DNA of 59,256 bases. Origin: a virus. The stretch is from positions 1 through 59,256 of IMG/VR virus record IMGVR_UViG_3300028025_001698. One strand, 5' to 3'. The translations under genes and the position numbers were made by a program. Positions 335 to 51,229 of this stretch are shown piece by piece (within the stretch, counting starts at the first letter, position 1; every line of letters begins with the position of its first letter). Under the pieces are notes generated by a model. The model searched no databases and was not told the origin of the DNA. It was given only the letters and a program-made list of their open reading frames with translations.

Positions 335-352
335 TGAGTCGGTACCTAATAC
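335..352 (+). promoter_or_regulatory. Candidate phage RNA polymerase promoter
   Basis: TGAGTCGGTACCTAATA (335-351) matches the 17-bp family motif; the predicted start base is C352, whereas all other copies have G. It lies 19 bp upstream of the gene at 371. A partial copy (TGAGTCGGTAAC, 311-322) precedes it. Bases 312-332 can form a hairpin (GAG-CGGT / ACCG-CTC with one T-T mismatch), perhaps a processing or end signal for the RNA polymerase transcript. Confidence 0.65.
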
Positions 353-370
353 CTAATATGAAAGGGAAAA

Positions 371-826
371 ATGAAAATAAAAAATCTTTATTATGTTTAT
401 AAACATATTGACCCTGATAACGGAGAAATCCTTTATGTAGGTATGGGTACTGGTTCTAGAGCATGGGCATCAGGGACTTCTAGCGGAAGCAGTAGGTCTA
501 ATGAACATGCTGCTTGGATTAGTGACAGGTATGAAGAGGGTTACACAATGAGTGATATTACTTTTGTAATGGAAACTTTGTTAACCAAAGAACAAGCTCT
601 TAGTATAGAGCTATCTTTAATTAAAGAATTAAAACCTAGGTTTAATAGGTTATCAAAAGACTTTGTTAATAAAAAATATACTAAAGAACAAGCAAAAGAA
701 GCCTTATCTCTTTTTAAAAGTGGTGTTAGGTATTGTGATATCCCAAGAGAACTCGGTTTAGAATCATCTAACATGAGTGTTCTTGGAAAACGTATGGTAG
801 AATCTGGAGAAAAATTTGAAGACTAA
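371..826 (+). CDS. GIY-YIG endonuclease (probable homing nuclease)
   Basis: A 151-residue protein with an N-terminal GIY-YIG nuclease fold: YYVYKHID (residues 7-14), then ILYVGMG, then GSRAW with the likely catalytic Arg. A later Glu in ALSIELSLIKEL and Asn in RFNR complete the signature. Residues ~100-145 (YTKEQAKEAL...IPRELGLESSNMSVL) look like a helix-turn-helix DNA-binding tail, as in modular homing nucleases. AAAGGGAA upstream is the ribosome site. It sits as a free-standing gene between RNA polymerase and nrdJ and ends 1 nt before the nrdJ ATG, so the two are probably co-translated. The target site is unknown; nearby nrdJ or RNA polymerase is a reasonable guess. Confidence 0.8.
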   Translation: MKIKNLYYVYKHIDPDNGEILYVGMGTGSRAWASGTSSGSSRSNEHAAWISDRYEEGYTMSDITFVMETLLTKEQALSIELSLIKELKPRFNRLSKDFVNKKYTKEQAKEALSLFKSGVRYCDIPRELGLESSNMSVLGKRMVESGEKFED

Positions 827-827
827 T

Positions 828-2705
828 ATGAACTCTTATCAGCAGCTGATTGCAAAATCGAGGTACGCTCGATACCTACCCGAACAAAAACGTAGGGAGA
901 ACTGGGATGAAACTTCTACTCGATGGGTAGACTTCTTTAAAGAACAGCTTAAAGACAAGATCAATACCCAAGATACTATCTGGGATATCTTAGGGACAAG
1001 CATTAATAACTTGTCAGTACTCCCATCTATGCGTTCTGTTATGACTGCTGGTGAAGCTCTTAAGCGTACACACGTAGCTGCATATAACTGTAGTTATCTT
1101 CCTGTAGATCATAAGCGTTGTTTCGATGAGGCTATGTATATCCTATTGTGTGGTACTGGTGTAGGCTTCTCATGTGAGCAAGTCTATACAAACAAATTAC
1201 CTACTGTACCTACATTAGAAGAATCAGATAAGATCATCACAGTAGAAGACTCTAAAGAAGGCTGGTGTGAGGCATATAAGTTGCTTATCAGTCGTTTATA
1301 TGCTGGCTCTATTCCCAAGTGGGATGTATCCTTAGTACGTCCAGCAGGTGCTCCACTTAAAACCTTTGGTGGTCGTGCCTCTGGTCCAGGACCCTTGATT
1401 GACTTGTTCCAGTATACTGTTAACAAGTTTAAGAATGCACAAGGTCGTCAGTTGAAGCCTATCGAGTGCCATGATATCATGTGTAAGATTGGTGAGGTAG
1501 TCGTTGTAGGTGGTGTACGTAGGTCAGCCATGATTTCCCTTGGTGACTTAGGTGACTATGATCATGCTACAGCTAAAGCAGGTGCATGGTGGGAAAACCA
1601 TGGTGAACGTGCATTGGCTAATAACTCTGCTGTATACAATAGTAAGCCTTCTATTGGTGAATTCATGAAGGAATGGTTAGATATCTATAACAGTCACTCA
1701 GGTGAACGTGGTATCTTTAACCGTGAAGCCTCACAGAAACAAGCTAACAAGTGGGGTCGTAGAGATATCAACACTGACTATGGTACTAATCCATGCTCAG
1801 AGATTATCCTTAAGCCATATCAGTTCTGTAACCTGTCTACAGTAGTTGTGTCTCCTGATGACACCGTTGCTTCCCTTAAAACTAAGGTTCGCTTGGCTAC
1901 TATTATGGGTACAATGCAGTCTACACTGACTGACTTCCCTTATCTTCGTGACATCTGGAAAAAGAATACAGAACAAGAGCGTCTCTTGGGTGTGTCTATG
2001 ACTGGTATCCTTGACAACCATATCCTCCGTGGTAGCAGTACACAGCATAACCTACGTAATGTCCTTGAAGAACTCCGTGATGTAGCCCGTGAAACTAATA
2101 AAGAGTGGGCAACTATCTTAGGTGTACCTGAATCAGCCGCTATTACTTGTGTTAAGCCTGAAGGTACTGTGTCACAACTTACACAGACATCTAGCGGTAT
2201 CCATGCTGGTCACGCACCATACTATATCAGACGTATTCGTCAGGATAAAAAAGACCCATTGACTCAGTTCTTGATTGACCAAGGTGTTCCTCATGAAGAC
2301 TGCGTTATGAAGCCAGACCAGACAGCTGTGTTTAGTTTCCCACAACAGTCACCAGGATTTACCCGTAAGGATATCAATGCTATTGAACACCTTAATATTT
2401 GGTTAGCATACCAACGTTTTTGGTGTGAGCATAAGCCTTCAGTAACTATCTCAGTTAAAGACCACGAGTGGATGGAAGTAGGCGCATGGGTATATGAACA
2501 CTTTGATGAGTGCACTGGAATTTCTTTCCTTCCTGATGATGGGGGTACTTATCGGCAAGCACCATACGAGAACACTGACGTTGAAACTTACCGTAATCTG
2601 CTTAACACCTTACCTGCTATTGAATGGGATCTCTTTATTGAAGACCGTGACAATGTAGAAGGTGTGCAGACTTTAAGTTGTGCCGCTGGCGGGTGTGAAA
2701 TCTAA
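828..2705 (+). CDS. nrdJ: Adenosylcobalamin-dependent ribonucleoside-triphosphate reductase (class II, monomeric)
   Basis: Reduces ribonucleoside triphosphates to deoxy forms with coenzyme B12, feeding phage DNA synthesis. All key residues of the Lactobacillus leichmannii type are visible: C88 (NCSYLP, first thiol), NPCSEI with C323 (thiyl radical) and E325, C334 (FCNLS), and a C-terminal redox pair C618/C623 (SCAAGGCEI). The spacings C323-C334 (11) and C618-C623 (5) equal those of C408-C419 and C731-C736 in the family type. At 625 residues it is shorter than the ~740-residue type. ATG at 828 is preferred; an upstream in-frame TTG (816) overlaps the preceding gene. A thioredoxin that could re-reduce the C-terminal pair follows at 3164. 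Confidence 0.96.
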   Translation: MNSYQQLIAKSRYARYLPEQKRRENWDETSTRWVDFFKEQLKDKINTQDTIWDILGTSINNLSVLPSMRSVMTAGEALKRTHVAAYNCSYLPVDHKRCFDEAMYILLCGTGVGFSCEQVYTNKLPTVPTLEESDKIITVEDSKEGWCEAYKLLISRLYAGSIPKWDVSLVRPAGAPLKTFGGRASGPGPLIDLFQYTVNKFKNAQGRQLKPIECHDIMCKIGEVVVVGGVRRSAMISLGDLGDYDHATAKAGAWWENHGERALANNSAVYNSKPSIGEFMKEWLDIYNSHSGERGIFNREASQKQANKWGRRDINTDYGTNPCSEIILKPYQFCNLSTVVVSPDDTVASLKTKVRLATIMGTMQSTLTDFPYLRDIWKKNTEQERLLGVSMTGILDNHILRGSSTQHNLRNVLEELRDVARETNKEWATILGVPESAAITCVKPEGTVSQLTQTSSGIHAGHAPYYIRRIRQDKKDPLTQFLIDQGVPHEDCVMKPDQTAVFSFPQQSPGFTRKDINAIEHLNIWLAYQRFWCEHKPSVTISVKDHEWMEVGAWVYEHFDECTGISFLPDDGGTYRQAPYENTDVETYRNLLNTLPAIEWDLFIEDRDNVEGVQTLSCAAGGCEI

Positions 2706-2718
2706 ATACAACTACTGG

Positions 2719-2736
2719 CTAGTCGGTACCTAATAG
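2719..2736 (+). promoter_or_regulatory. Candidate phage RNA polymerase promoter
   Basis: CTAGTCGGTACCTAATA ends at 2735 with predicted start G2736. This is one of the best copies of the motif. The first transcribed bases, GGAGGT, are also the Shine-Dalgarno of the gene starting at 2749, giving a leader of only 13 nt. Confidence 0.75.
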
Positions 2737-2748
2737 GAGGTATCAATT

Positions 2749-3177
2749 ATGATTGGTCAGAAATTTAATAAGTGGACTGTGGTTGAGTTTGATTCTAAAA
2801 CAAAAAACCACAATTCACTTTACAAATGTATATGTGAATGCGGAAAAGAAAGCATTGTAAAGGATTCTAATTTACGAACAGGTAAATCAAAGCAATGTAA
2901 GTCTTGTTCTGCTAAAATTAATGGGCGTAAAGGTTTAGATGCTCAATCTAAACAACATCTGTATTTCATTCGTTGTGGTGATTATATTAAAATTGGATCT
3001 ACAGATGATATAGAAAGAAGAATTAAAAATTTAAAACATGCTAACCCATATCCAATAGAGCTTATAAAAATTATGCTGAATGAAGGTCACTTAGAATCAA
3101 AATACCATGATCAATACAAAGATAAACGAATCCACGGTGAGTGGTTTAACATGAAAGAGTTAAATGAAACTACTTAA
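2749..3177 (+). CDS. GIY-YIG/T5orf172-type nuclease with N-terminal zinc ribbon
   Basis: A 142-residue two-domain protein. Residues 1-60 carry the GQKFNKWTVVEF start common in phage homing-nuclease DNA-binding modules, then a four-cysteine zinc ribbon (CICECGK...CKSCSAK). Residues ~68-138 are a T5orf172/MUG113-type GIY-YIG fold: LYFIRCGDYIKIGSTDDIERRIKNL, a Glu before YHDQYKDKRI, and the terminal GEWF signature. It has a strong AGGAGG ribosome site and its own candidate promoter. It overlaps thioredoxin by 14 nt and separates it from nrdJ, a typical homing-gene position. Confidence 0.75.
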   Translation: MIGQKFNKWTVVEFDSKTKNHNSLYKCICECGKESIVKDSNLRTGKSKQCKSCSAKINGRKGLDAQSKQHLYFIRCGDYIKIGSTDDIERRIKNLKHANPYPIELIKIMLNEGHLESKYHDQYKDKRIHGEWFNMKELNETT

Positions 3178-3418
3178 ATTCTCTGCAGCATGGTGTCAAC
3201 CATGTAAGCAACTAGATGCATTCCTAGCAGAAGCCTTGTTAGAATATCCTGAGATTGAACTTGTGAGTATGCCTATTGAAGACAATAAAGATTCAGTATC
3301 ATACTACGGTATCCGTACAGTACCCACTATGATTATGGTTGATGACAATGATCAGGTACTCAGGACTTCTGTAGGCTTTATACCTACTAAGGTTAAACCT
3401 TTTTTAGCAGGTACCTAA
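3164..3418 (+). CDS. Thioredoxin-like protein
   Basis: A compact 84-residue thioredoxin fold with active site AAWCQPCK (C11, C14) and the cis-proline segment RTVPTM near residue 53. Thioredoxins reduce disulfides such as the C-terminal pair of class II ribonucleotide reductase, so pairing with the neighbouring nrdJ is the likely role. It is shorter than bacterial thioredoxin (~105), as is common in phages. Its stop codon lies inside the candidate promoter at 3404-3421. Confidence 0.88.
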   Translation: MKLLKFSAAWCQPCKQLDAFLAEALLEYPEIELVSMPIEDNKDSVSYYGIRTVPTMIMVDDNDQVLRTSVGFIPTKVKPFLAGT

Positions 3419-3421
3419 TAG
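3404..3421 (+). promoter_or_regulatory. Candidate phage promoter ahead of the tRNAs
   Basis: TTAGCAGGTACCTAATA then G3421. The conserved GGTACCTAATAG core is kept; the TCGG part is degenerate (CAGG). It overlaps the thioredoxin stop and its predicted start base is 4 nt from the tRNA 5' end, so it probably transcribes the tRNA genes. Confidence 0.6.
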
Positions 3422-3424
3422 AAA

Positions 3425-3496
3425 AGCGGGGTAGCTCAGTAGAAGAGCGCTGGACTCATAATCCAGAGGTCAGAGGTGCGACTCCTTTCCCCGCAA
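3425..3496 (+). tRNA. tRNA with CAU anticodon (Met, initiator-like acceptor)
   Basis: A full cloverleaf folds. The acceptor is GCGGGG/CCCCGC with an unpaired A1-A72 end. The D stem is GCTC/GAGC, the anticodon stem CTGGA/TCCAG with loop CTCATAA (CAT at 3457-3459), and the T stem AGAGG/CCTTT. The acceptor and the 1-72 mismatch mirror bacterial initiator tRNA, but the C11-G24 pair and the anticodon stem without three G-C pairs are elongator-like. The D loop lacks the usual GG and the T loop is TGCGACT rather than TTCRANT. CCA is not fully encoded (ACCC follows). A lysidine-modified Ile2 identity is possible. Confidence 0.85.
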
Positions 3497-3540
3497 CCCT
3501 CGGTCCGACTCTACCGATACGGAGTCACAGACAAAATGAC

Positions 3541-3614
3541 AGTGGTATAATTCAACTGGTAGAATCGAGGATGTATAAGCTTCGGGATGTGGCGTTCGAA
3601 CCCCACTACCACTC
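3541..3614 (+). tRNA. tRNA-like gene, degenerate; anticodon ambiguous (UAU or GUA)
   Basis: A perfect 7-bp acceptor (AGTGGTA/TACCACT), 4-bp D stem (ATTC/GAAT), D loop with GG, and T loop TTCGAAC are present. Two defects stand out. The T stem has an extra C at 3593 (GTGG-C-G against CCCAC). The anticodon stem closes either on a 7-nt loop TGTATAA with an A-G mismatch and G at position 33 (anticodon UAU, Ile), or on a 9-nt loop (GUA, Tyr). The short variable arm argues against Tyr. It may be decaying or non-canonical. Confidence 0.6.
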
Positions 3615-3632
3615 TCTAATCAAGGACACAAC

Positions 3633-3965
3633 ATGGCTAAAGTAAAACACCCTAAGTATTATTCAAGGAAGTTCCTTAATAAAACTAGTGGTACAGCATT
3701 AATTGAAATTAGGGCAGATATCAGTGCTTATTCTATGGATGGTACTATATGTATATCTGACTGTTATCGTAAGACAGAATTAGATATGCACATATATGAT
3801 AAGAAATCATTAAAAGAAAAGTCTGATAAGCTAGACTTATTAATTAAAGAGTTAAATTTATATAAAGATTTTATAAATAATAATGCCGATTATTATTTTA
3901 AATTAAAAGAAAATAATAAAGATAAAAGCTTATTAGCATTATTAAATGAGGATGAAGATGATTAA
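3633..3965 (+). CDS. Hypothetical protein, 110 residues
   Basis: Not recognised. The N-terminal half is basic (KVKHPKYYSRKF) and predicted beta-rich. Residues ~65-100 are Lys/Asn-rich and helical, and the tail is acidic (NEDEDD). It starts 19 nt after the tRNA-like gene. ATG 3633 follows an AAGGAC ribosome site. It opens a run of five small genes with overlapping ends leading to the Dps homologue. Confidence 0.65.
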   Translation: MAKVKHPKYYSRKFLNKTSGTALIEIRADISAYSMDGTICISDCYRKTELDMHIYDKKSLKEKSDKLDLLIKELNLYKDFINNNADYYFKLKENNKDKSLLALLNEDEDD

Positions 3966-4155
3966 TGAACATGATATCATGGATTTATGTCCTGATTACT
4001 ATAAAACTCAGGAAGAAATCCTGCATGATGACAGAGCCTATTGGTACGACATTGAGCTACAGGGGCTAAAGCTTCCTGAGGTATGGGGTAAGTATATCTT
4101 AGGTGAAAATGTTAGATCCTACGAGTTTAATATTAGCAAAGGCTATTATGGGTAA
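3958..4155 (+). CDS. Hypothetical protein, 65 residues
   Basis: Not recognised: an acidic, aromatic-rich small protein (MINEHDIMDLCPDYYKTQ...). ATG 3958 is chosen over upstream in-frame ATGs at 3946 and 3952 because GAGGATGAAG gives it a ribosome site. It overlaps the 3' end of the previous gene by 8 nt and the next start by 8 nt, so translation is probably coupled. Confidence 0.6.
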   Translation: MINEHDIMDLCPDYYKTQEEILHDDRAYWYDIELQGLKLPEVWGKYILGENVRSYEFNISKGYYG

Positions 4156-4294
4156 GGGTAGCGGTCGTAGACCAACCGATGAAAACAAGTTCCAAAGTAA
4201 TTATGACCTGATCTTTGGTAAAAAACCACCTGAAGGTCAGGATAAAGAGAAGGAAAAACAAGATGGCAATGACACCACCCCAACCAAAGAATAA
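4148..4294 (+). CDS. Small MGKGSGRRP-type phage protein
   Basis: A 48-residue protein beginning MGKGSGRRPTDENKFQSNYD. This basic start followed by an F-x-x-N-(Y/W)-D-x-I-F segment recurs in small proteins of T7-like aquatic phages, whose function I do not know. The C terminus is highly charged and probably disordered (KEKEKQDGNDTTPTKE). ATG 4148 begins the conserved part. It overlaps the Dps start by 32 nt in another frame. Confidence 0.6.
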   Translation: MGKGSGRRPTDENKFQSNYDLIFGKKPPEGQDKEKEKQDGNDTTPTKE

Positions 4295-4739
4295 TAGTTT
4301 GATTACACAGCTTACTGAATTGTATGCTAATAACTTTGTAACATACTATAAGTCACATGGATACCACTTCAATGTTGAAGGTCCAATGTTTGCTCAAGAC
4401 CATGCACTACTAGAAGAGATTTATGATTTTCTTTGGGCGCAACATGATATGCTCGGAGAACAAATCCGTCAAATGGATAAAGGAGTACCATGTTCTCTTA
4501 AAGAAATCCTTGGTATGACTGAGATTGTAGAATGCGATTCAGCAAAGAAACCTAGTAAAGAAATGTTTACGTGGTTGAATGAAGACTTTAATTGCTTGAT
4601 TGAGTATGCACAACAACTATATGATGATGCTGATATGCAGAGTTATGGTGGTCTTGCTACTTTAATTGGTGACTATATTAAAGACTTATCTAAGTTAAAT
4701 TGGAAAGTTAAAGCTACTATTGGAAAGAGTTTTAAATGA
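4263..4739 (+). CDS. Dps-like ferritin (DNA-protection, iron oxidation)
   Basis: A 158-residue Dps-family protein. Dps forms a 12-subunit shell that oxidises and stores Fe(II) with peroxide, and some members coat DNA. The signature SHGYHFNVEGPMFAQDH is clear. Candidate ferroxidase ligands H35, H47, E51, D62 and E66 show exactly the spacing of E. coli Dps H51, H63, D67, D78, E82, with Asp-to-Glu at one site, so activity is plausible. ATG 4263 with AAGGA upstream is chosen; it has a short N-terminal tail without an obvious Lys-rich DNA-binding arm. It lies at the end of the plus arm with late-type neighbours. Protection of the phage DNA or host from oxidative stress is inferred. Confidence 0.9.
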   Translation: MAMTPPQPKNNSLITQLTELYANNFVTYYKSHGYHFNVEGPMFAQDHALLEEIYDFLWAQHDMLGEQIRQMDKGVPCSLKEILGMTEIVECDSAKKPSKEMFTWLNEDFNCLIEYAQQLYDDADMQSYGGLATLIGDYIKDLSKLNWKVKATIGKSFK

Positions 4740-5017
4740 AATCATATAACGTACAAGCATTAAGAGGTCATGATTATGATGATCATGACTTTCAAATAGA
4801 TATGCGGGATGTTGGTATTAATATCCCTGATAATGTTCTTTATACTAAAGACCTTGGTCCTTATGTAATTAATGAGGTATATAAACAAAGCTCAACAGGC
4901 TTAGTTGATGTTCTTAACGACAAAACAGGTATGCTTTATACCAAGGCAGAAGCTGAAGAAACTGCTAAGAGTAATAAATCACAAGCATTAGATATGTATA
5001 ACCAGCTATTAAGCTAA
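4736..5017 (+). CDS. Hypothetical protein, 93 residues
   Basis: Not recognised. An acidic protein with His/Asp-rich residues 12-17 (HDYDDHD) and a helical C-terminal third rich in Glu/Ala. It starts by a 4-nt ATGA overlap with the Dps gene, so the two are probably translated together. It is the last gene of the plus arm and is followed directly by the bidirectional terminator. Confidence 0.65.
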   Translation: MKSYNVQALRGHDYDDHDFQIDMRDVGINIPDNVLYTKDLGPYVINEVYKQSSTGLVDVLNDKTGMLYTKAEAEETAKSNKSQALDMYNQLLS

Positions 5018-5028
5018 AAAAAAAAAAT

Positions 5029-5064
5029 AACCCCTACTAGGATAATTCCTAATAGGGGTTTTTT
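5029..5064. terminator. Bidirectional rho-independent terminator
   Basis: AACCCCTA/TAGGGGTT extended by TAGGA/TCCTA gives a nearly continuous 14-bp stem with one mismatch and a TAAT loop. It is flanked by a poly-A run upstream (5016-5028) and T6 downstream. It sits between the convergent ends of the plus arm (5017) and minus arm (5070) and can stop transcription from both sides. Confidence 0.9.
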
Positions 5065-5069
5065 ATTTG

Positions 5070-8000
5070 TCAGGTAAAGAAGTAAATCATTCCCTTGTTG
5101 CCTCGTGCTTTAAGTTCTTTTAAGAATGCATCACGTTTGTCTTTATATTTTAAACTATCCCAAGCATATATGCCTGAATATTTTGAATTAAAATTATAAT
5201 ACATATACATATTATCTGCTAAAGATTTTGCCTGTTGTTTTGTAATACGAGTAGATTCAGGTCTATCAGGACCCGGAGGTGTATAACCTGAAGATTTACT
5301 TTCAAGAAATTCTTTCAATTTCTTTTGGTAATCTGCTAACTCATTTGGCTTTTTATCTTTTAGATATTTGTATTCACGATCAATAGTAGTAAACATACCT
5401 TTGTAAGGTGATCCTGGACCAATTACAATCTCATCATTACGCATCATTTCAGGAACAGCTTCCCTGAGTTGCTTCATAAAGTCAGTAGTAAAACCTTTAG
5501 CCATGTTCCACTCAAACACTTTGGGAGCTACAATATTGTTAGCTACATAGTGAACAAAGGGATAACTCATAGAGTCAACAATAAAATTATCAAACACAGG
5601 AATAATAAAGCTAGAGTCTGCTGGTGTTTTATTACCATTAAGTAACCTTGCTGTCTCAGCAATAATAATTGACTCACGGTATTGACCAAATGTAGGACCA
5701 ACTTGGTTAACTGCTCCAGATCCTTCTTCAGGTATAAACAAAGACCCATCGTCTAACCTTAAGCCTTTAGCTTTAGCTGGTGCTAGAGGGTTAAACATTC
5801 TGGCAGTTTCCATTATACGTCTTCGTATACCTTCTGCACCTTTAATCTGAACAATATTTCCTGTAGGTTCAGTACCAAATCTACCAATAGAAATGTTTTC
5901 ATTATAGTAACCAATTGGCTTAGGAACTCGACCAAACATTTGTAGATACCTGACCATCTTTTTAGGTAATACATATTGCCAAGAGTCAGTTGTCTGTTTT
6001 AAAGTTGATTTATAAATTTCATTAATGTCTTTAGCTAAAGCATTAACGTCACCATTATAAAACCTTACTGCTTCATCCCTAAATTCAGGATGACTCTTTA
6101 AGAAAGCTTGGGCTTCTGCAATGTGGTAATTAGCTGGCTTACCATAGTCGGTAGTCATCAAGACTTTCTTTGAGAAGTCTTTATTGAATTGTTTATTACC
6201 AGCAACCCCTGCACCACCATACTTAGCAAGTAGAATTTTAAAGTTTTCAACCTTATCTGGTTGACTATCTCCAAAAGCAGAAGAAATACCTTGATCTAAA
6301 GCTACTGTTGTAAAGTAATATCGTGGATCACCCTTTTCATTAGGTAACGTATCGGTAAATAAATCACCAACTTTGTCAATAAACTTATCCCATACCAAAC
6401 CAACACGGCTTAAGATATCCATGTTACCAACGTCAGAAGCTAAGAAAGAACGACCAGCTGAGTTCATATCAAGAGCTACAGTAACCCTTGGAGTAAAAGG
6501 AGTTCCATTCAACTTAGAGTCTAAGTAATTAGCAGCATCAAGATAAGCTTGAAGCTTGTAACCCCAGTCATCTCTATCTGCTTCTTTAAGGAAATTATCT
6601 AATGCACCCTTTTGAGCAGGAGTAAGCTTTTCAATAAGACCTTCTGGTTTACCTAAGGCATTAACAACTTCACGGGTATTGTTAGGAACAATGCTACGTA
6701 ACAATCTACCTTTTGCAGCAGCCTCAGCAATAAACTCTGGTGTTACTGTTTGTAACAAGTCAGGTAACAAAATAGATTCAGATGACATACCTGCAGACCT
6801 ACTTGAGTCAAGCACACGACCAAGTGTTGTAAGGAAGCTTAATTCTTTTTCATCTGCTGACAAAGTAAAATTATTATTTCTTGCTTTACCTGCAATCCTA
6901 CTAAAGAAACCTTCAGCAGTTGCTTTGTTAACCCCTGTATTATGGAAGTTACTATTAAGCATAATAGGAGCAGACTTACCTACAGTTAATGCACGAGTCC
7001 ACTTATTACGTTGTGGATTAAAGTCAGTTGCATCCTGATACATTCGGTGTGTTGCATAGTCTTCCCAATAAGTAGAGAACTGTGGACCACCATAAGCCAC
7101 ATGCTTTGCCATGTCACCTAACTCAGTCTGAAGGTTGTTTACTTTTTGATCAATAACTTCTGCCGCTGTTTTGTTTCCATTAACAGAAGCATCTTGAATG
7201 TCTTCTTCAGATACCTTTAACAAGCCCATAACATTTAATTGTGCTGGACTAGTTGGATTCATTACATGACCGAGAATAGCTTCATTAAACAAAGCAGCAA
7301 AGTAAGCTTTAACAGGAGAAATAAATAAGGGTACTTTAGCTACAGCACCTTTGGCCTCAGCCATTTCTTTGGTAACAGTATACTCTTGCTTTTTCTTATC
7401 CATTTCACGGACGTCTTGCAACGCACCTTGATAAGCACCTGTCTCTGTTGGAGGAGCCTTTTGAGCTTTTCCTGACAATGCACCAGTAACACTACGTTGC
7501 ATGCCTTTGCTTTTGTATCTCAACTCAGCACCTAAGCCTGGACTTAACCTGAGAATCTCAGTACCTTGTGGATCAACATCCTCAATTAAGTATCCCTTAT
7601 CAACTAGCGCTTGGCTAATAGTTGCACCAGCTGCTTCATTAGAAATGTTTTGATTAATAGCTTGAGAGTTACCAACAAAAGTTTCTTCTCCTGCACCTTT
7701 AGATAACTTTTTAAACAAACGACCTAGGTTCTTCTCAACCATGTCCCGTTTAAGACCACCGTTAACAGCTACTTTACTTAGCGGACCATCACCATCATCC
7801 ATCAACATTTGATCTAAGCCACTGATATCAGAGTTGTCTTCAGCAGACATGATTTCACCGTCTTTTTGATTTGCAGCACCTGACAACATAGGAGCTAACA
7901 AAATAAAAGAAGTAGTAGCTGCATTACCAACTTGTTTAGTATCTAAACCAGTACCTTGTTTAAGGTAAGTAAGACCGTTAAGTTGTGCATTAGAAGTTGT

Positions 8001-8570
8001 TCCTTCTTTATACAAACCTACACTTAAATCGTTTAAACCATTAGCAATGTTCATAGCAGTACGAACAATAGCACCTGCTTCAGTAGCCTGAACTGCACCA
8101 TCACCATAAGCAGTCCTAATTCCTTCTTCATTTTCCCAACGAGAAGGATCAAGGATTTTCCTTGCTTCCATTTGACTGTTACGTTCTTCTTGAAGCTTGC
8201 TATAGTAGTCTTCGTTAGTACTTTCACCAGCAAAAGTATCCATACCAAAGCCACCATCCTCTTGAGGGGCTTCAGTCATCTCTGGCATGTCATCAATAGG
8301 TTGTTGAGTAGGAATTAATTCCTCTGCTGGCATACGAACATCAGTACCCGCTAGTAGCCTTGCATCAGGAGGTAATCCAGATAACCTTCTTGCAGGAACA
8401 AACTCTTCTTCTTCACCAAATATCAATGATGGATTAGGAATTGTTTGTTGTTCAGGTGGTGGAGGAGCATTCATACGAGCATTAGCTTCGTTGATTTGCT
8501 GTTGAAGTAAATCGTCTGCAATACGTGGTATTGTAGGTACGTTAACCTTTGTATTAATATTAATCGCCAT
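5070..8570 (-). CDS. Giant internal virion protein, 1166 residues
   Basis: The last gene of the late arm. Its size and place after the nozzle, fibre and smaller internal proteins fit the large ejected core proteins of podoviruses (T7 gp15/gp16 position), which form a channel for DNA entry. The N terminus is Pro-rich and probably disordered (residues ~30-110). A mostly helical body follows, with a hydrophobic stretch near residue 220 (NAATTSFILLAPMLSGAAN). I see no transglycosylase motif. It overlaps the end of the 1269-residue gene by 11 nt. The assignment rests on context and size. Confidence 0.7.
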   Translation of the reverse strand: MAININTKVNVPTIPRIADDLLQQQINEANARMNAPPPPEQQTIPNPSLIFGEEEEFVPARRLSGLPPDARLLAGTDVRMPAEELIPTQQPIDDMPEMTEAPQEDGGFGMDTFAGESTNEDYYSKLQEERNSQMEARKILDPSRWENEEGIRTAYGDGAVQATEAGAIVRTAMNIANGLNDLSVGLYKEGTTSNAQLNGLTYLKQGTGLDTKQVGNAATTSFILLAPMLSGAANQKDGEIMSAEDNSDISGLDQMLMDDGDGPLSKVAVNGGLKRDMVEKNLGRLFKKLSKGAGEETFVGNSQAINQNISNEAAGATISQALVDKGYLIEDVDPQGTEILRLSPGLGAELRYKSKGMQRSVTGALSGKAQKAPPTETGAYQGALQDVREMDKKKQEYTVTKEMAEAKGAVAKVPLFISPVKAYFAALFNEAILGHVMNPTSPAQLNVMGLLKVSEEDIQDASVNGNKTAAEVIDQKVNNLQTELGDMAKHVAYGGPQFSTYWEDYATHRMYQDATDFNPQRNKWTRALTVGKSAPIMLNSNFHNTGVNKATAEGFFSRIAGKARNNNFTLSADEKELSFLTTLGRVLDSSRSAGMSSESILLPDLLQTVTPEFIAEAAAKGRLLRSIVPNNTREVVNALGKPEGLIEKLTPAQKGALDNFLKEADRDDWGYKLQAYLDAANYLDSKLNGTPFTPRVTVALDMNSAGRSFLASDVGNMDILSRVGLVWDKFIDKVGDLFTDTLPNEKGDPRYYFTTVALDQGISSAFGDSQPDKVENFKILLAKYGGAGVAGNKQFNKDFSKKVLMTTDYGKPANYHIAEAQAFLKSHPEFRDEAVRFYNGDVNALAKDINEIYKSTLKQTTDSWQYVLPKKMVRYLQMFGRVPKPIGYYNENISIGRFGTEPTGNIVQIKGAEGIRRRIMETARMFNPLAPAKAKGLRLDDGSLFIPEEGSGAVNQVGPTFGQYRESIIIAETARLLNGNKTPADSSFIIPVFDNFIVDSMSYPFVHYVANNIVAPKVFEWNMAKGFTTDFMKQLREAVPEMMRNDEIVIGPGSPYKGMFTTIDREYKYLKDKKPNELADYQKKLKEFLESKSSGYTPPGPDRPESTRITKQQAKSLADNMYMYYNFNSKYSGIYAWDSLKYKDKRDAFLKELKARGNKGMIYFFT

Positions 8571-22492: not shown

Positions 22493-22493
22493 C

Positions 22494-42472: not shown

Positions 42473-42473
42473 T

Positions 42474-42619: not shown

Positions 42620-42637
42620 CTTGGGGTAAGTACCAAG
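42620..42637 (+). other. Intergenic hairpin in early region
   Basis: CTTGG/CCAAG pair round an 8-nt loop in the 82-nt gap before the gene at 42670. Possibly an RNA processing or stability element; weak on its own. Confidence 0.3.
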
Positions 42638-42669
42638 ATTTCATTAACAGTCATTACCAAAGGAATAAT

Positions 42670-42954
42670 ATGACTATCTTAACATTCGGATTTGCCACTA
42701 AAGGCGACACAACAACTGCTTCATTCACAATGGAGTCATCTACATTGATGGCAGTCTATACAGACTCATCAAACAGATACCTGTATGCAGTAGATAGTAA
42801 CGATATTGTTCGTAAACTGTCTATTACTCGTGATGTTGAACACGCACGTAAGCAGTATAAGGTCGCTCGTAGCTTAATCGGCAAACAAGTTAAGTTCGGT
42901 GTAACCTCAGGATGGTCTTCATCTAACTGGTTCAATGAAATCGTAGAAGCTTAA
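42670..42954 (+). CDS. Hypothetical early protein, 94 residues
   Basis: MTILTFGFATKGDTTTASFTMESS..., beta-rich with Ser/Thr, then a basic helix (DVEHARKQYKVARSL) and GKQVKFGVTSGWSSSNWFNEI. Not recognised. AAAGGAATA precedes the ATG. It sits in a block of small rightward early genes that share tight spacing. Confidence 0.6.
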   Translation: MTILTFGFATKGDTTTASFTMESSTLMAVYTDSSNRYLYAVDSNDIVRKLSITRDVEHARKQYKVARSLIGKQVKFGVTSGWSSSNWFNEIVEA

Positions 42955-42964
42955 GGAGAAACCT

Positions 42965-43216
42965 ATGAAAGCACGTTATTTACTCTTAAACCCACTCAAG
43001 GCAAGAGACTTTGGGTGTACAACAGAAGAAGTCGTAGAGTCAGTACATGAATTCGGCTGTAAAGTAGTCATGTCACCAGACACAACAGGAGAAACACTGC
43101 TGTATGCGGTGTCAGACAACAGAAGTGTGCTGGAAAACATGGTAAATGAGGTAGAACTCAATGGCATCATCATAGAATACACAGCAATCTATGATCAAAT
43201 ACTGGAAGGACAGTAA
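42965..43216 (+). CDS. Hypothetical early protein, 83 residues
   Basis: MKARYLLLNPLKARDFGCTTEEV..., predicted alternating strands and helices of a small alpha/beta fold, two Cys, acidic overall. AAGGAGAAACC gives a good ribosome site. No family recognised. Confidence 0.6.
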   Translation: MKARYLLLNPLKARDFGCTTEEVVESVHEFGCKVVMSPDTTGETLLYAVSDNRSVLENMVNEVELNGIIIEYTAIYDQILEGQ

Positions 43217-43217
43217 A

Positions 43218-43427
43218 ATGGCATACCTAAGACAGTCCTATGGTAGATATTACCTAGATATGTCACCTGAAGAGCTAAATGCACTAGTAGACGTCATGGA
43301 TGAACTACCTTCTATGACAAAAATAGAGACAGGCATACACTACCAGATAACAAAACACAGGGAATACATACAACAGGAGGAGAAATGGCACAGACAGATA
43401 GATATTGACAGGGGGATTGTAACCTAA
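43218..43427 (+). CDS. Hypothetical early protein, 69 residues
   Basis: MAYLRQSYGRYYLDMSPEELNALVDVMDELPSM..., helical, with a Gln/Glu/Lys-rich C terminus. ATG 43218 is preferred (GGAAGGACAG upstream, directly after the previous stop); the frame extends to 43191 inside the previous gene. Function unknown. A strong RNA hairpin follows. Confidence 0.6.
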   Translation: MAYLRQSYGRYYLDMSPEELNALVDVMDELPSMTKIETGIHYQITKHREYIQQEEKWHRQIDIDRGIVT

Positions 43428-43431
43428 AGAC

Positions 43432-43478
43432 ATTCTCTCAGGACATTTCGCTGTGAAAAAGGCGAGACCTGAGGGAAT
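43432..43478 (+). other. Long imperfect RNA hairpin (possible RNase III site)
   Basis: An 11-bp outer stem, ATTCTCTCAGG (43432-43442) with CCTGAGGGAAT (43468-43478, one G-T pair), leads over a 3-nt bulge (ACA) to a 6-bp inner stem TTTCGC/GCGAGA and a 10-nt loop. It lies in the 140-nt gap between genes at 43427 and 43568 and has no T-run. Its form recalls the intergenic RNase III processing hairpins of T7 early mRNA. A weak AACGTT/AACGTT stem with T6 (43510-43532) follows and may be a terminator. Confidence 0.6.
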
Positions 43479-43567
43479 TCTTGAAGGATTTTCGTGTGTA
43501 GAAAACCTGAACGTTGTTTTTAAACGTTTTTTGTCACTTTTTGAGCTTTTTAAACAAAGGAGTCTAA

Positions 43568-43735
43568 ATGTACAAACACCTGTACTTTGTAAAATGTGAA
43601 GAATGTCTTATTGAATACAACTCAGAAGACGTTAATATATTAAAAATAACCCACACCGCTTTAGGTCATAAAATTGCAGAATTCGTCTGCACACTCTGCC
43701 AAGAAACAACTGAATCACTAGTAACTGAGGTATAA
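43568..43735 (+). CDS. Small zinc-finger-like protein, 55 residues
   Basis: MYKHLYFVKCEECLIEYNSE..., then FVCTLCQETTES: two C-x2-C pairs (CEEC and CTLC) about 33 residues apart, consistent with one zinc-binding site. AAAGGAG precedes the ATG. Possibly a nucleic-acid or host-protein binder; no family recognised. Confidence 0.6.
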   Translation: MYKHLYFVKCEECLIEYNSEDVNILKITHTALGHKIAEFVCTLCQETTESLVTEV

Positions 43736-43736
43736 C

Positions 43737-43958
43737 ATGAAGACCATAACCAGACGACATAAACCAATCGCCTTCCAGCCATTCGAGTTAACGATGTCCA
43801 TAGAAACCCAAGAACAGTTCTATGATATGATGTCGCTATTCTCATTCTACACCAACCTAGCAGACGTCACCAATACAAACAACCCAGACGTACATAAACG
43901 TATGACTCACATATGTATGTCTATCTATGACGCACTTGAAGCAGAGGATCAGTACTAA
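43737..43958 (+). CDS. Hypothetical early protein, 73 residues
   Basis: Basic N terminus (MKTITRRHKPIAFQPFELTM) then a helical body (TQEQFYDMMSLFSFYTNLAD...MTHICMSIYDALEAED). It starts 1 nt after the previous stop. Function unknown. Confidence 0.58.
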   Translation: MKTITRRHKPIAFQPFELTMSIETQEQFYDMMSLFSFYTNLADVTNTNNPDVHKRMTHICMSIYDALEAEDQY

Positions 43959-43959
43959 T

Positions 43960-44169
43960 ATGCAAATCTCCAAACAAACCCAAGTTGAATACACAATCGT
44001 CATGTCTGAAGAAGACGCATTAGTACTTTTGAACGGCTTAGGCAAGCTTGACTACCATGAGCTATCCAGACTAACAGACAACCTTGAATTTGGCTCTGTG
44101 ATGCATAAACTATATGACGTCCTTGTAAGTAAGATCAAACGAGGTTCAATCCTTAAAGATGAATCGTAA
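43960..44169 (+). CDS. Hypothetical early protein, 69 residues
   Basis: MQISKQTQVEYTIVMSEEDALVLLNGLGKL...; a beta strand then two helices with a basic end (VSKIKRGSILKDES). It starts just after the preceding stop; the frame extends upstream to 43927 but only within that gene. The EDALVLLNGLGKL helix is similar in style to that of the 69-residue protein at 43218. Function unknown. Confidence 0.58.
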   Translation: MQISKQTQVEYTIVMSEEDALVLLNGLGKLDYHELSRLTDNLEFGSVMHKLYDVLVSKIKRGSILKDES

Positions 44170-44344
44170 AAGAAAGATCATGTCCATGTCAAATGCAAGA
44201 GAAATCTATGACGACCTTATCCTGAGAATCAAATCAAAGGTAAAGTCTGAAATATCCGTAGTCTTTGATGATACAACAGGTATCCAAAAGGCATTCCTTA
44301 AAGGCAAACTATTGTGGGTCAAAAAAGTGAGGTTAGATAAATGA
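44159..44344 (+). CDS. Small basic early protein, 61 residues
   Basis: MNRKRKIMSMSNAREIYDDLILRIKSKVKSEIS...; strongly basic, helical at the start and beta at the end. It overlaps the preceding gene by 11 nt and the next by 4 nt. No family recognised. Confidence 0.55.
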   Translation: MNRKRKIMSMSNAREIYDDLILRIKSKVKSEISVVFDDTTGIQKAFLKGKLLWVKKVRLDK

Positions 44345-44556
44345 AACTGCAAGAACTATTAAATCCTCGTTGGATATGTGTTGATGAACACTTTTGTACT
44401 GAGTTTGGTGAAACTGTAGCTGACTGTATTGAAAGATACAAAAAGTCTATGGATGAAGGTGTTGATGTATCTAAACTGACCTTCTACACACTTGAAACAC
44501 CGTATGTAGTTGAAGTATTTTACGCACTAAAGGAGAAAAACCCAATAGAATCATAA
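44341..44556 (+). CDS. Hypothetical early protein, 71 residues
   Basis: MKLQELLNPRWICVDEHFCTEFGETVADCIERYKK...; helical, three Cys, acidic. It closes the first early block, with a 4-nt overlap to the preceding gene. It is followed by a phage promoter motif, an AT-rich tract and the small terminase terminator. Function unknown. Confidence 0.58.
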   Translation: MKLQELLNPRWICVDEHFCTEFGETVADCIERYKKSMDEGVDVSKLTFYTLETPYVVEVFYALKEKNPIES

Positions 44557-44562
44557 ACTTAT

Positions 44563-44580
44563 TTAGCTGGAACCTAATAG
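44563..44580 (+). promoter_or_regulatory. Candidate phage promoter without a close gene (possible origin promoter)
   Basis: TTAGCTGGAACCTAATA then G44580. The next plus-strand gene is 600 bp away, across the oppositely oriented small terminase gene. The AT-rich tract at 44593-44649 follows. It may prime replication, or drive the ssDNA-binding protein operon while running antisense to the small terminase. Confidence 0.6.
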
Positions 44581-44592
44581 GATACTGTCCCT

Positions 44593-44649
44593 TAAATGGT
44601 TATTAATATATTTATTAAAAGTATATTATTAAGAGTAAATAAAAAAGAG
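44593..44649. other. AT-rich tract, candidate replication origin
   Basis: About 57 bp with only seven G and no C on the plus strand (~88% AT), directly downstream of a phage promoter motif and without a gene. The T7 primary origin has the same order: RNA polymerase promoters followed by an AT-rich stretch where primase-helicase loads. Confidence 0.4.
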
Positions 44650-44690
44650 AACATCAATAGGTAATATACCTAAAGACATTCTCTTAATTA
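44642..44690 (-). terminator. Terminator of the small terminase gene
   Basis: AAGAGAA (44645-44651) pairs with TTCTCTT (44679-44685), with an inner TAGGTA/TACCTA stem and ATA loop. On the minus strand it ends in a T-run (complement of 44641-44646). There is no T-run on the plus strand, so rightward transcripts may read through. Confidence 0.7.
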
Positions 44691-44691
44691 C

Positions 44692-45081
44692 TTACTTATC
44701 AAGACCTTCTTCTGAGATAATTCTCTGAAGTTCTTCATCTGAGAGGTCTGCTGTACGTGTAGTAGTAGTCTGATCAATCCTCTGTAGTTTAGGTTGTTCA
44801 TACTCTGCTACCATGTTAGCATACCTAGCAGCATCTTCGAAGTTATCTTGTTGAAGTGCTTGATGCATAGCCATTCTTAGGACATCGAGTGAAGATAGTT
44901 GAGGTAAGTCTTTCATTACTTCTTGAAAGTTCTTAGCATTCAACTTAAATTCTTCTCTGATCTGCTTATTCAACATTCTTGACTGAGTAGCTTTCTTCTG
45001 ATTCTCTCGAGCTGTCTCTGAAGTAATTAGCTTTAGGTTAGCAAGAGAGTTAATGTTACGGGTTTTACCACCTGATGACAT
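44692..45081 (-). CDS. Terminase small subunit (putative)
   Basis: 129 residues. A basic, Asn/Arg-rich N terminus (GGKTRNINSLANLKLITSETARENQKKATQSR) would suit DNA binding. A helical core follows (SLDVLRMAMHQALQQDNFEDAARYANMVAEYEQPKLQRID) and the ending is ADLSDEELQRIISEEG, typical of small terminases that recognise packaging sites and dock to the large subunit. It is a solitary minus-strand gene within the plus arm, with its own promoter (45113-45130) and terminator. AAGGAG precedes the ATG. Confidence 0.75.
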   Translation of the reverse strand: MSSGGKTRNINSLANLKLITSETARENQKKATQSRMLNKQIREEFKLNAKNFQEVMKDLPQLSSLDVLRMAMHQALQQDNFEDAARYANMVAEYEQPKLQRIDQTTTTRTADLSDEELQRIISEEGLDK

Positions 45082-45112
45082 TCCATTCTCCTTATTGTTT
45101 CTGATAAATTAT

Positions 45113-45130
45113 CTATTAGGAACCGACTAG
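45113..45130 (-). promoter_or_regulatory. Candidate phage promoter for the small terminase gene
   Basis: On the minus strand: CTAGTCGGTTCCTAATA, start G at 45113, one base different from the best copies. It is 32 nt upstream of the small terminase ATG, putting this gene under late control like the large subunit. Confidence 0.72.
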
Positions 45131-45180
45131 CGAGAAGTATACTTGAAACATAAATTAAACGTAAATCCATAGGAAATATC

Positions 45181-45684
45181 ATGACACAAGCAACAAACAC
45201 ACCTAACATCATCATCAAAGATGTAGCCTTATTCTGGGCTAAGTTAGATAAACCTGTATCACCTTTCGGTGTTGATCAGTATGAGTTACAGATCCAAGGT
45301 GACAAGAAGCGTGAGAAAGAGTTCTCTCAGTTCGGTAAAGTTAAAGTAATTGAAGGCGGTAAAATCTCTGTTAATCTTAAAAAGAAAGCTTTTAAGAAAG
45401 ATGGTACAGATGCCGCTAAAGTGCGTGTAGTAGACGCAGGTAAGAAAGAACTTGATCCAAAGTTGATTGGTAATGGTTCTATCGGTAATGTCATGGTGTA
45501 TTGCTCACCTTATGAAATTAAGCTTCCTAATGGTAAAATTAGTAAGTCTGGTATCTCTACCATGTTAGTAGCTGTTCAGGTTACTGATCTTGTTCGTTAT
45601 GAACGTAAATCTGAAAACTTTGTTGACTTTGATGTTGAAGGTGCTTCAGTTGATACAGATCAATCTGAAGAAGCAATGTTCTAA
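45181..45684 (+). CDS. Single-stranded DNA-binding protein (T7 gp2.5-like)
   Basis: 167 residues, beta-rich OB-like body (FWAKLDKPVSPFGVDQYELQIQGD, GNGSIGNVMVYCSPYEI, SGISTMLVAVQVTDLVRYE). It ends in an acidic tail with a terminal Phe (DTDQSEEAMF), the hallmark by which T7 gp2.5 contacts polymerase and helicase. It would coat ssDNA and coordinate replication. GGAAATATC precedes the ATG and a terminator follows, so it may be expressed strongly on its own. Confidence 0.85.
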   Translation: MTQATNTPNIIIKDVALFWAKLDKPVSPFGVDQYELQIQGDKKREKEFSQFGKVKVIEGGKISVNLKKKAFKKDGTDAAKVRVVDAGKKELDPKLIGNGSIGNVMVYCSPYEIKLPNGKISKSGISTMLVAVQVTDLVRYERKSENFVDFDVEGASVDTDQSEEAMF

Positions 45685-45691
45685 ATAAATT

Positions 45692-45738
45692 AATCCCTTG
45701 TGATAGTCCTTAACAGGTCTGTCATGAGGGATTTTTAT
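45692..45738 (+). terminator. Rho-independent terminator after the ssDNA-binding protein
   Basis: AATCCCT pairs with AGGGATT, with an inner GATAG/CTGTC stem, followed by T5. It lies 8 nt after the stop codon. Confidence 0.8.
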
Positions 45739-45776
45739 TTCTCTCTGTTCTTTTCTTTAAACTTAATGGATATAAA

Positions 45777-46148
45777 ATGAAACTCAATAAAACACAACGT
45801 GACTATGCTGTATCTCGTCTTGCTGATAAACTCTCTCAAAAACGTAATGCAGAAACTCCAGACTTTGTTCCGTCTAAGAAAACTGATATTAAAGAAATCT
45901 ATAATTTGCTAATTAGTGCAGGTGTTAAGATAACATCTGAATCTGACTTCGTTAATCGTAGCTGGAGGCTAACTGATCTTGGTGAAGTAATCATCTTCCC
46001 TGTTGGCTTTGATAAAGCACATGAAGAAAACCAACGTGTTCGTGATGAAATCCGTGTTAAATATGAAACTATCCAACAAGAATTAACAGATAAACTGTAT
46101 CTCTGTGATGAAGCACAAGAAGCTCTCGACTTAATCAACTCAATCTAA
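45777..46148 (+). CDS. Hypothetical protein, 123 residues
   Basis: Basic helical N terminus (MKLNKTQRDYAVSRLADKLSQKR), a middle alpha/beta segment (DFVNRSWRLTDLGEVIIFPVGFDKAHEENQRV) and a C-terminal coiled coil. KTQRDYAVxR is a common opening in small phage proteins beside ssDNA-binding genes. Function unknown. Confidence 0.65.
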   Translation: MKLNKTQRDYAVSRLADKLSQKRNAETPDFVPSKKTDIKEIYNLLISAGVKITSESDFVNRSWRLTDLGEVIIFPVGFDKAHEENQRVRDEIRVKYETIQQELTDKLYLCDEAQEALDLINSI

Positions 46149-50153: not shown

Positions 50154-50745
50154 ACGTTTTGTCGCTGGAAGTATTAAGTTCTTCGACATCTATGAATGCA
50201 CTGTAGATGAAGTTGATACTTATACTTCTAGCACTGGCAAATCTATGGTTAAAGTGTCTATTGAAGGCAAAGAGTATAATGGTCTCCATAACAAATGGGT
50301 CTATGAATATCTCTGCGCCAACGAAGGACAGCCATCTTTTGTAGTCTTCTGGAAAGCCCCTAAAGGTGATCCTATGGTAGCCTACGTTAAAGAGATATGG
50401 CAGAATCACATTGATGGTACTCCACAAGAAACTGTCTATCTAGCAGATGATGCTGAAGCACATAAACAAGAGGGTGACTCTTTCCTGTATATGTGGGTTA
50501 ACAAAGATACCGATAAGAAATACATTGGTAAACACAGAGGTAAACCTGATGATGGTTATGTGTGTTCGTCTGAAAGCTTTATGGCTGAATACAATGAATG
50601 TCCATCGAGATTCATCAGAACAATCCTTGAATATGGTTCTGATCAAGAAATGCTTGAGTTAGAAACCATTATGCTTCTGCAGTTAAAGACTCGTATGAGT
50701 CCACTGTACTATAACCTTTCAAACAATCTTAATAAGGATAATTGA
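50131..50745 (+). CDS. GIY-YIG nuclease-domain protein with unknown N-terminal domain
   Basis: 204 residues. Residues ~115-200 are a GIY-YIG-like nuclease domain: FLYMWVNKDTDKKYIGKHRG, DDGYVCSSESF, an Arg in RFIRTIL, Glu in MLELETIMLLQL and a terminal YYNLSNN. Residues 1-110 form a beta-rich domain (YECTVDEVDTYTSSTGKSMV..., VVFWKAPKGDPMVAYVKEIW) that I do not recognise and that might bind DNA. It could be a homing nuclease or a phage-specific DNase. Overlaps the preceding gene by 23 nt. Confidence 0.72.
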   Translation: MNHIKTIKRFVAGSIKFFDIYECTVDEVDTYTSSTGKSMVKVSIEGKEYNGLHNKWVYEYLCANEGQPSFVVFWKAPKGDPMVAYVKEIWQNHIDGTPQETVYLADDAEAHKQEGDSFLYMWVNKDTDKKYIGKHRGKPDDGYVCSSESFMAEYNECPSRFIRTILEYGSDQEMLELETIMLLQLKTRMSPLYYNLSNNLNKDN

Positions 50746-50746
50746 T

Positions 50747-51004
50747 ATGGCAAAATCACATGATGTTAAACATGACTTCACTATTAAATTAGGTGGTCAA
50801 AACTATGAGATTCAAATTAGCCCTAGCACTAACTATGGATGGTTTGAACATAAAGAACTTGGTGACGAATCAGGTGGAGGTCTCTGGTTTGATCGTGGAA
50901 TGTTCCTGATTGACTATGATGGGGTATATGAGTTACCCTCAGAAGTTAAAGATAGCCTAATCAGGTTTGGTTATATTGATCCACTAGAGGTTGAACAATG
51001 GTAA
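50747..51004 (+). CDS. Hypothetical protein, 85 residues
   Basis: MAKSHDVKHDFTIKLGGQNY..., GDESGGGLWFDRGMFLIDYDGVYELPSEV. The L-W-F-x-x-x-x-L-x-D-Y-D-G-x-x-x-L-P segment is seen in small phage proteins of unknown function. TAAGGATAATTG precedes the ATG. It starts just after the GIY-YIG gene. Confidence 0.6.
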   Translation: MAKSHDVKHDFTIKLGGQNYEIQISPSTNYGWFEHKELGDESGGGLWFDRGMFLIDYDGVYELPSEVKDSLIRFGYIDPLEVEQW

Positions 51005-51198
51005 TTGATATTGATGATGAAGTAGTTGACAAGTTAGTGTCTGCAAATATTAAAAAGTCATATGAGCTTTTATCTGATCCTAGATTCCAAAAAGGAATGT
51101 ATAGCATGGATGAATATGAAAACTTAGTCATGATAAATCTTTTGCGCAGAGCTATGGAAAGAGTATACGAGTACTATAGCTCAGACAAACTCGATTAA
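50998..51198 (+). CDS. Hypothetical acidic protein, 66 residues
   Basis: MVIDIDDEVVDKLVSANIKKSYELLSDPRF..., a helical acidic protein with NLVMINLLRRAMERVYEYY. It overlaps the previous gene by 7 nt and closes this block before the promoter at 51212. Confidence 0.58.
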   Translation: MVIDIDDEVVDKLVSANIKKSYELLSDPRFQKGMYSMDEYENLVMINLLRRAMERVYEYYSSDKLD

Positions 51199-51211
51199 AA
51201 TCAACACAACC

Positions 51212-51229
51212 ACAGTCGGTACCTTATAG
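51212..51229 (+). promoter_or_regulatory. Candidate phage promoter before the replication block
   Basis: ACAGTCGGTACCTTATA then G51229; one base off the core. It lies in a 48-nt gap and 18 nt before the gene at 51247. It would give the nucleotide and replication genes, and RNA polymerase itself, a self-reinforcing phage-driven transcript. Confidence 0.7.

Follow-up and report, generated by a model that had tools for sequence, protein, structure and literature searches.

The RNA polymerases (RNAPs) of phages T7, T3, SP6 and K11 recognize compact promoters, elements of 17-18 bp that end at the transcription start (+1) and are read by a specificity hairpin of the enzyme. Phage single-subunit RNAPs with promoters of their own are a well-known kind. 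Here we examine a likewise compact element in the 59,256-base virus record IMGVR_UViG_3300028025_001698, which comes from an uncultured marine podovirus and whose whole length we refer to as the window. A first-pass annotation had proposed eight copies of a phage-specific promoter in it; the analysis presented below leaves us almost certain that these 18-bp elements are, as predicted from sequence, promoters read by the T7-like single-subunit RNAP that the phage itself encodes. The recognition halves of the T7, T3, SP6 and K11 promoters are unlike that of the window family, as the annotation had pointed out for the first three. The window family lacks the CACTA core that those promoters share (PMC13029058, excerpt), having CCTAATA instead, with CCTAA at -7 to -3, and it carries AG at -15/-14. 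In the excerpt, promoters were sought by the CACTA core, with no matches for some of the phage RNAPs of that study; searches for CACTA-like cores would miss window-type promoters. That T7-like RNAPs can have very different promoters is already known (PMC6171733, excerpt). A search of the open-licence literature retrieved neither a description of the window promoter nor a natural multi-way RNAP-promoter switch, and the eight papers containing the string GGTACCTAATA were judged unrelated. As far as this literature was searched, the specificity and its frame are new, as is the series of matched switches in nature, which is consistent with the earlier suggestion of a possibly undescribed specificity.

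Exactly eight sites match TTAGTCGGTACCTAATAG at up to three mismatches on the two strands of the window, all where they had first been reported. Since 100 dinucleotide shuffles gave a mean of 0.08 matches and at most 1, chance is excluded. A position-matrix scan, proposed with the original prediction as a check, scored the eight copies at 22.5-31.4 bits; one extra match reached 8-9 bits and no ninth copy above 9 bits was found in the window. The matrix was trained on sites from nine genomes with the window's promoter version (hereafter type A), the window's own copies among them. The family was also recovered with no promoter model: when noncoding 18-mers were clustered de novo it was the largest in the window, and its nine members include a reverse reading of the 2719 copy, which is nearly palindromic. 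Long open reading frames (ORFs) were masked in this clustering, since unmasked whole-genome 18-mers were swamped by coding repeats in several genomes. In four relatives clustered under the same masking (G007, G016, G019 and G021) the promoter family is not among the five largest noncoding families.

Seven of the eight copies directly precede a gene or tRNA on their own strand, and six have 13-32 nt between the proposed +1 and the next start codon. The copy TGAGTCGGTACCTAATAC (335-352, plus strand) lies just after the RNAP gene, as phi1.1A of T7 lies at +26 after its own, and upstream of a homing-endonuclease-like gene (371-826, plus; matched weakly by PHROGs and not by Pfam); in G018 and other relatives the corresponding slot is upstream of the ribonucleotide reductase gene. 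The next, CTAGTCGGTACCTAATAG (2719-2736, plus), ends 13 nt short of a homing-endonuclease-like gene with a T5orf172/MUG113 domain (2749-3177, plus), and TTAGCAGGTACCTAATAG (3404-3421, plus) places +1 four nt before a tRNA-Met (CAT; 3425-3498, plus). These distances bear out the spacing of 4-32 bp upstream of a gene or tRNA that had been proposed. On the minus strand, TTACTTGGTACCTAATAG (20521-20538) is upstream of a virion protein gene (18979-20502, minus) and TTAGTCGGTACATAATAG (41764-41781) upstream of the terminase large subunit gene (40096-41736, minus) and structural genes. The copies at 3404 and 20521 overlap the final 15 nt of the upstream gene, of which they contain the stop codon (thioredoxin-domain and endolysin genes, respectively). 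Two further copies, TTAGCTGGAACCTAATAG (44563-44580, plus) and CTAGTCGGTTCCTAATAG (45113-45130, minus), face each other, the latter being upstream of a 129-aa gene with no assigned function (44692-45081, minus). Finally, ACAGTCGGTACCTTATAG (51212-51229, plus) is followed by a 55-aa ORF and a MazG-like gene for a nucleoside triphosphate pyrophosphohydrolase.

All eight copies are located outside ORFs of at least 100 aa. Sites scoring 16 bits or more number 97 in 14 genomes or part-genomes, nine of type A (65 sites) and five of a related version, type B (32 sites), and 94 of them likewise avoid such ORFs, outside which only 18.5-24% of these sequences lies; ORFs were called mechanically, and the first and last 30 nt of each were treated as outside. 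Thus the outcome that had been named beforehand as refuting, as many genic as intergenic matches, did not occur. Across 32 related contigs the type A pattern has 109 matches at up to three mismatches, against 1 for a reversed-pattern control, and is present in 20 of them. The remaining 12 comprise six with type B, two with type D, one with type C and three with an RNAP hairpin of type A (these versions are described below). The copies recur in the same slots, that is, before terminase, a virion gene, a tRNA and a MazG-like gene, just after the RNAP gene, and as a facing pair. Of the 56 full-length RNAP genes, 48 have a copy whose first base lies between -4 and +47 nt relative to the stop codon's end. 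It could be argued that such sites bind some other protein (as an endonuclease target, or in repression, packaging or replication), given that the GGTACC centre is palindromic and that two of the eight copies precede endonuclease-like genes. The directional frame, an orientation that follows the downstream gene in seven of eight copies, a tRNA starting 4 nt after +1, the recurrence at terminase, virion, single-stranded DNA-binding protein (SSB) and RNAP slots, and the co-variation with the RNAP hairpin shown below make this barely credible to us.

The copy at 44563 had been singled out by the first-pass annotation as the only one away from a gene start. A gene of the opposite strand does lie directly downstream; however, the copy is not stray, since like-placed copies occur upstream of an SSB-type ORF in relatives. 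In the window it is about 600 nt upstream of a Gp2.5-like SSB gene (45181-45684, plus), and in 9 of 13 relatives a similar copy precedes a 167-177-aa ORF by 552-633 nt; this ORF was confirmed as an SSB homologue in G018 and G011. In G012 the distance is 514 nt and the ORF 109 aa long, and none was seen in the part-genomes G003, G009 and G007. In relatives, too, the facing pair surrounds the 129-aa gene upstream of SSB. T7 promoters after gene 1 serve as RNAP-primed replication origins, and some of the copies, above all 44563, might mainly do the same, which would add to a promoter function without replacing it. The post-RNAP copy is placed like phi1.1A and the stretch after 44580 is AT-rich by eye. 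Cumulative GC skew, lowest near 41-43 kb, does not discriminate, because gene direction also changes there; overall we regard a main role as origin as unlikely.

The annotation had also held that the cognate polymerase is encoded here. A T7-like RNAP gene is indeed present, matching Pfam RNA_pol and, by hidden Markov model (HMM), T7 RNAP; but it is cut by the record ends, the hairpin falling into the break. Its N-terminal 524 aa (57685-59256, plus) run off the right end and its C-terminal 86 aa, from the HDSF motif to the stop, are at the left end (3-263, plus). Among the relatives listed, the eight closest at the left end, with DNA identities of 91-99% and 86-97% at the two record ends, all have the hairpin KQRGTIKGIQGNKDGRVMH; as the gene is broken, it is from them that we infer the window's own. 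At 733 aa the RNAP is shorter than that of T7 (883 aa) and shares its fold, as judged from a relative. An AlphaFold model of a relative's enzyme, L003 (predicted local distance difference test score 86.2, predicted template modelling score 0.78), superposes on T7 RNAP (8dh5) with Z 40.3 and a root-mean-square deviation of 3.4 over 501 residues at 22% identity. The hairpin strands in this model are 590-598 and 609-617, and the residues that change between types sit in both strands and in the turn. M611 was aligned with T7 Q758 by MAFFT and by HMM.

Corresponding slots in relatives keep the -17 to +1 frame while the letters at -12 to -7 vary by type: GG[TA]NCC in type A, mostly G[TAC]CCCC in B, GGCCCC in C and CTGCTC in D. 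Consensus letters common to all versions are A-15, G-14, T-5, A-4 and A-3. Types B (TTAGTTGTCCCCTAATAG) and D (AGCCCTGCTCTAAAGGA) came from clustering relatives without type A matches, B being the largest noncoding family in G011, G013, G014 and G020; clustering likewise gave type C (AGCAGGCCCCTAAT), with four copies in G025. That contig holds two type C sites at one mismatch and three at three, against 0 for the reversed pattern at up to three, and G022 holds six type D sites at up to two mismatches against 0. In G022 the terminase gene and a virion gene are each preceded by a D copy, ribonucleotide reductase is followed by one, and others lie upstream of the 129-aa gene with SSB and, at a distance of about 0.9 kb, of DNA polymerase; no slot was assigned to the copy at 47054, and the post-RNAP slot is empty.

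The most complete comparison is offered by G011, in which all eight window slots have a B-like counterpart: 335 corresponds to 25325, 2719 to 23386, 3404 to 22685, 20521 to 3045, 41764 to 45863, 44563 to 42046, 45113 to 41477 and 51212 to 33965. The copy at 3045 reads GACCCC and is separated from the virion gene by a 226-aa ORF. Those at 25325 and 23386 read GGCCCC, keeping G at -10, and could possibly be intermediates of the type B switch. The 2719 copy and its T5orf172-domain gene (window 2705-3177) lie between ribonucleotide reductase and thioredoxin in both the window and G011, where the homologue is 65% identical, and both are absent from G018, a long relative whose RNAP N-terminus is 99% identical. 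The promoter of this inserted gene is of A type in the window and GGCCCC in G011, the surrounding letters being alike and the centre different. In a laboratory-evolved T7 RNAP-promoter system (PMC6171733, excerpt) a changed -11 to -9 triplet was likewise matched to an altered RNAP, yet only 4-5 of 16 promoters were changed, whereas all eight slots of G011 are B-like, two with G at -10.

Promoter version and hairpin were compared at 83 distinct loci with a complete hairpin region, near-copies still included, and sites were counted at up to two mismatches outside an exact core. The 63 loci with an A hairpin hold 134 A, 4 B, 0 C and 7 D sites; the 11 with a B hairpin, 0 A, 27 B, 2 C and 0 D; the single C-hairpin locus (L068), 2 C sites and none of the others; and the six with a D hairpin, 8 D sites and none of the others. 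Two loci, L078 and L200, fit no hairpin class and hold no sites. The slot just after the RNAP gene has an A site in 52 of the 63 A-hairpin loci, and a B site in 10 and a C site in one of the 11 B-hairpin loci. These counts show consistency rather than the outcome of a blind test, as the core patterns were chosen after the sites had been seen; the D sites, for their part, were found after the odd D hairpin had been noticed and a different promoter predicted. Recognition of the letters -12 to -7 by the specificity hairpin is therewith supported, in the form of co-variation. The pairing has few exceptions, and of all the evidence for the promoter interpretation it is the strongest. The same result bears on whether these are host RNAP promoters redirected by a phage sigma factor or activator, the arrangement found in phiEco32-like phages. 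The portal is of SU10 type, resembling that of phiEco32-like phages, and TAATA could pass as a -10-like element. However, changes in the central letters accompany changes in the hairpin of the single-subunit RNAP, and Pfam Sigma70_r2 and Sigma70_r4_2, the only two sigma models tried, had no match at E up to 1 in the incomplete record (the controls of this search matched in 11 of 14 and 14 of 14 genomes). We hold host RNAP redirection to be very improbable.

At the residue level, 12 of 733 RNAP positions fully separate the 10 type B from the 38 type A enzymes, and four of these are in the hairpin. Only three columns are invariant in all 38 and changed in all 10 (595, 606 and 607), and all three belong to the hairpin; residue 611 is M in 37 of 38 type A RNAPs and R or N in B. 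Eight divergent rows of the 56 full RNAPs were left out of this comparison (L058, L065-L069, L075 and L078), six of which keep Q, K and D, while L068 has F at 595 and L078 a shorter hairpin. The hairpin contains 4 of 12 private columns in B; where the promoters are unchanged, in eight further clades or single rows, it contains 3 of 263, or 1 of 93 once the two single rows are removed. One of the three is a T at 611 in L060. In T7, residues N748, R756 and Q758 contact -11/-10, -9 and -8, and the hairpin contacts the groove from -11 to -7 (PMC5937735, excerpt). The positions at which the promoters depart from type A, -10, -9 and -8 in type B and -11 to -7 in type D, are those that this contact map predicts. 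Within the group the correspondence seems partly readable: M to R or N at 611 would go with C at -9/-8, changes at 595, 606 and 607 with loss of G at -10, and a rewritten hairpin with a change of all of -11 to -7. Type B forms one clade within A in the trees (support 100/100), and in a tree built without the hairpin columns the four hairpin classes need at least three changes; that tree, with 33 of 34 rows labelled (all but L078), was made by a quick method and carries a warning of long branches. The RNAP of L078, used as a scan query, found only itself. Taken together, the relatives probably represent a natural set of at least four RNAP-promoter specificities, five with Roseobacter phage CRP-7 (see below), derived from at least three independent joint switches of promoters and hairpin residues, with a partly readable residue-to-base pattern and with the promoter of an inserted endonuclease-like gene following suit.

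Several observations weigh against the interpretation given so far. About 367 bp are missing between the record ends, a gap size taken from the closest relatives, and the specificity hairpin is among them. Three A-hairpin contigs (G016, G019 and G032) have no copy at up to three mismatches; relaxing the pattern to five in G032 gave 18 matches, equal to the 18 of the reversed control, and was abandoned. Among the 63 A-hairpin loci, 11 lack an A site just after the RNAP gene and five lack one in the whole locus, and the 4 B-pattern and 7 D-pattern matches there are taken as background. None of the six D-hairpin loci has a post-RNAP site, nor has L068. Type C rests on one contig, in which one 3-mismatch site is inside the reductase gene. 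Furthermore, the counts are not independent, the loci being related and type B one event, and the residue-to-base map is not one to one, since -8 varies within type A and T611 goes with an A promoter in L060 and others. Finally, of 63 loci with a post-RNAP site, 53 have C as the proposed +1 base, six have G and four have A. In the other slots the base is mostly G. A C at +1 is unusual for single-subunit RNAPs.

The closest isolate found is CRP-7 (MK613349), which infects Roseobacter strain FZCC0042 (PMC6918029), with 33% identity to the window in the RNAP (N-terminal 524 aa) and 52% in the portal. Its largest noncoding family, written in sense, is TAGTCCATTATTAAAAGG, with five copies at up to two mismatches and none for the reversed control below four; matches at 4-5 mismatches were set aside as background (7 against 13 in the control). 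The copies follow gene direction, three (2027, 7148 and 14765) being on the plus strand in the half with plus-strand genes and two (38262 and 57212) on the minus strand in the half with minus-strand genes, and one starts 27 nt before the RNAP gene. At CRP-7-like loci TAGTCCATTATTAAAAGG precedes the RNAP gene in 39 of 41, the other two (L230 and L233) starting inside the gene. The AGTC...TAAAA-GG frame is common to CRP-7 and the window family, while the letters at -11 to -6 differ (CATTAT and variants) and the promoter stands before the RNAP gene rather than after it. CRP-7 has N at the place aligned with 611, which does not follow the -9/-8 pattern. A text search of the CRP-7 description (PMC6918029) gave no occurrence of the word promoter. 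Another candidate source, PMC12629253, was rejected: a text search of it gave neither promoter nor RNA polymerase, and the CRP-7 match examined was part of CRP-701. As CRP-7 carries a promoter family of its own, this isolate could be used to test the class.

From these data we infer the following course of transcription. The RNAP would bind and read the 18-bp element, the letters -12 to -7 being recognized by the specificity hairpin (residues ~590-617, the counterpart of T7 739-770); TAATA at -5 to -1 would melt, and RNA would begin at G and tend to continue GAAAC. The commonest letters from +1 onward are G, G, A, A, A and C (72, 41, 39, 66, 54 and 30 of 82 distinct rows), although these rows include a few loose matches and indicate a trend only. 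The promoters would drive middle and late transcription on both strands and also transcribe the tRNA and the inserted endonuclease-like genes. At least three changes of the hairpin would have occurred among relatives, each genome's promoters taking on other -12 to -7 letters at corresponding slots. A note made from the window alone could not show that relatives have other versions matched to other hairpins. How a phage changes RNAP specificity when many promoters must follow has so far been approached with laboratory-evolved T7 (PMC6171733, excerpt); the contigs seem to preserve natural switches that have run to completion, in one case with possible intermediates. If true, switches of this kind would leave lineages transcriptionally isolated from one another, and the matched enzyme-promoter pairs could serve as orthogonal transcription systems.

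Elsewhere in the record, the minus strand encodes an SU10-type portal, terminase and major head and tail proteins, and the plus strand an A-family DNA polymerase, exonuclease, primase-helicase, ribonucleotide reductase and the RNAP. A megablast search of the structural region against phage records gave no match, so that collection holds no close isolate. Early promoters could not be picked out in a sigma-70 scan covering 41.6-46 kb, which matched 14 times, no more than shuffled sequence (14.5). A weak second tRNA match at 3541-3614 (30.8 bits, cut-off 29, with the stretch searched alone) was reported neither by ARAGORN nor by a whole-window Rfam search.

Some minor features of the promoter loci are also worth recording. 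Immediately 5' of the full 335 copy (window 310-352) are a hairpin-like stretch and an incomplete promoter copy, TGAGTCGGTA, at a place where G018 has one promoter only. The facing promoters at 44563-45130 flank the 129-aa gene; in the type D contig G022 this gene points the same way as SSB and the plus promoter alone was detected, which suggests a local inversion. Three type A promoters are arranged in tandem within 120 bp in G024 (14777, 14824 and 14877, minus). A group I intron is present in the interrupted RNAP genes of L063 (11256-11499) and L070 (7062-7293); some 200 nt beyond the interrupting stop follows a type A promoter. Lastly, G008 and G017 carry exact end repeats, 121 and 127 bases long, which points to circular assembly of genomes of about 64 kb.

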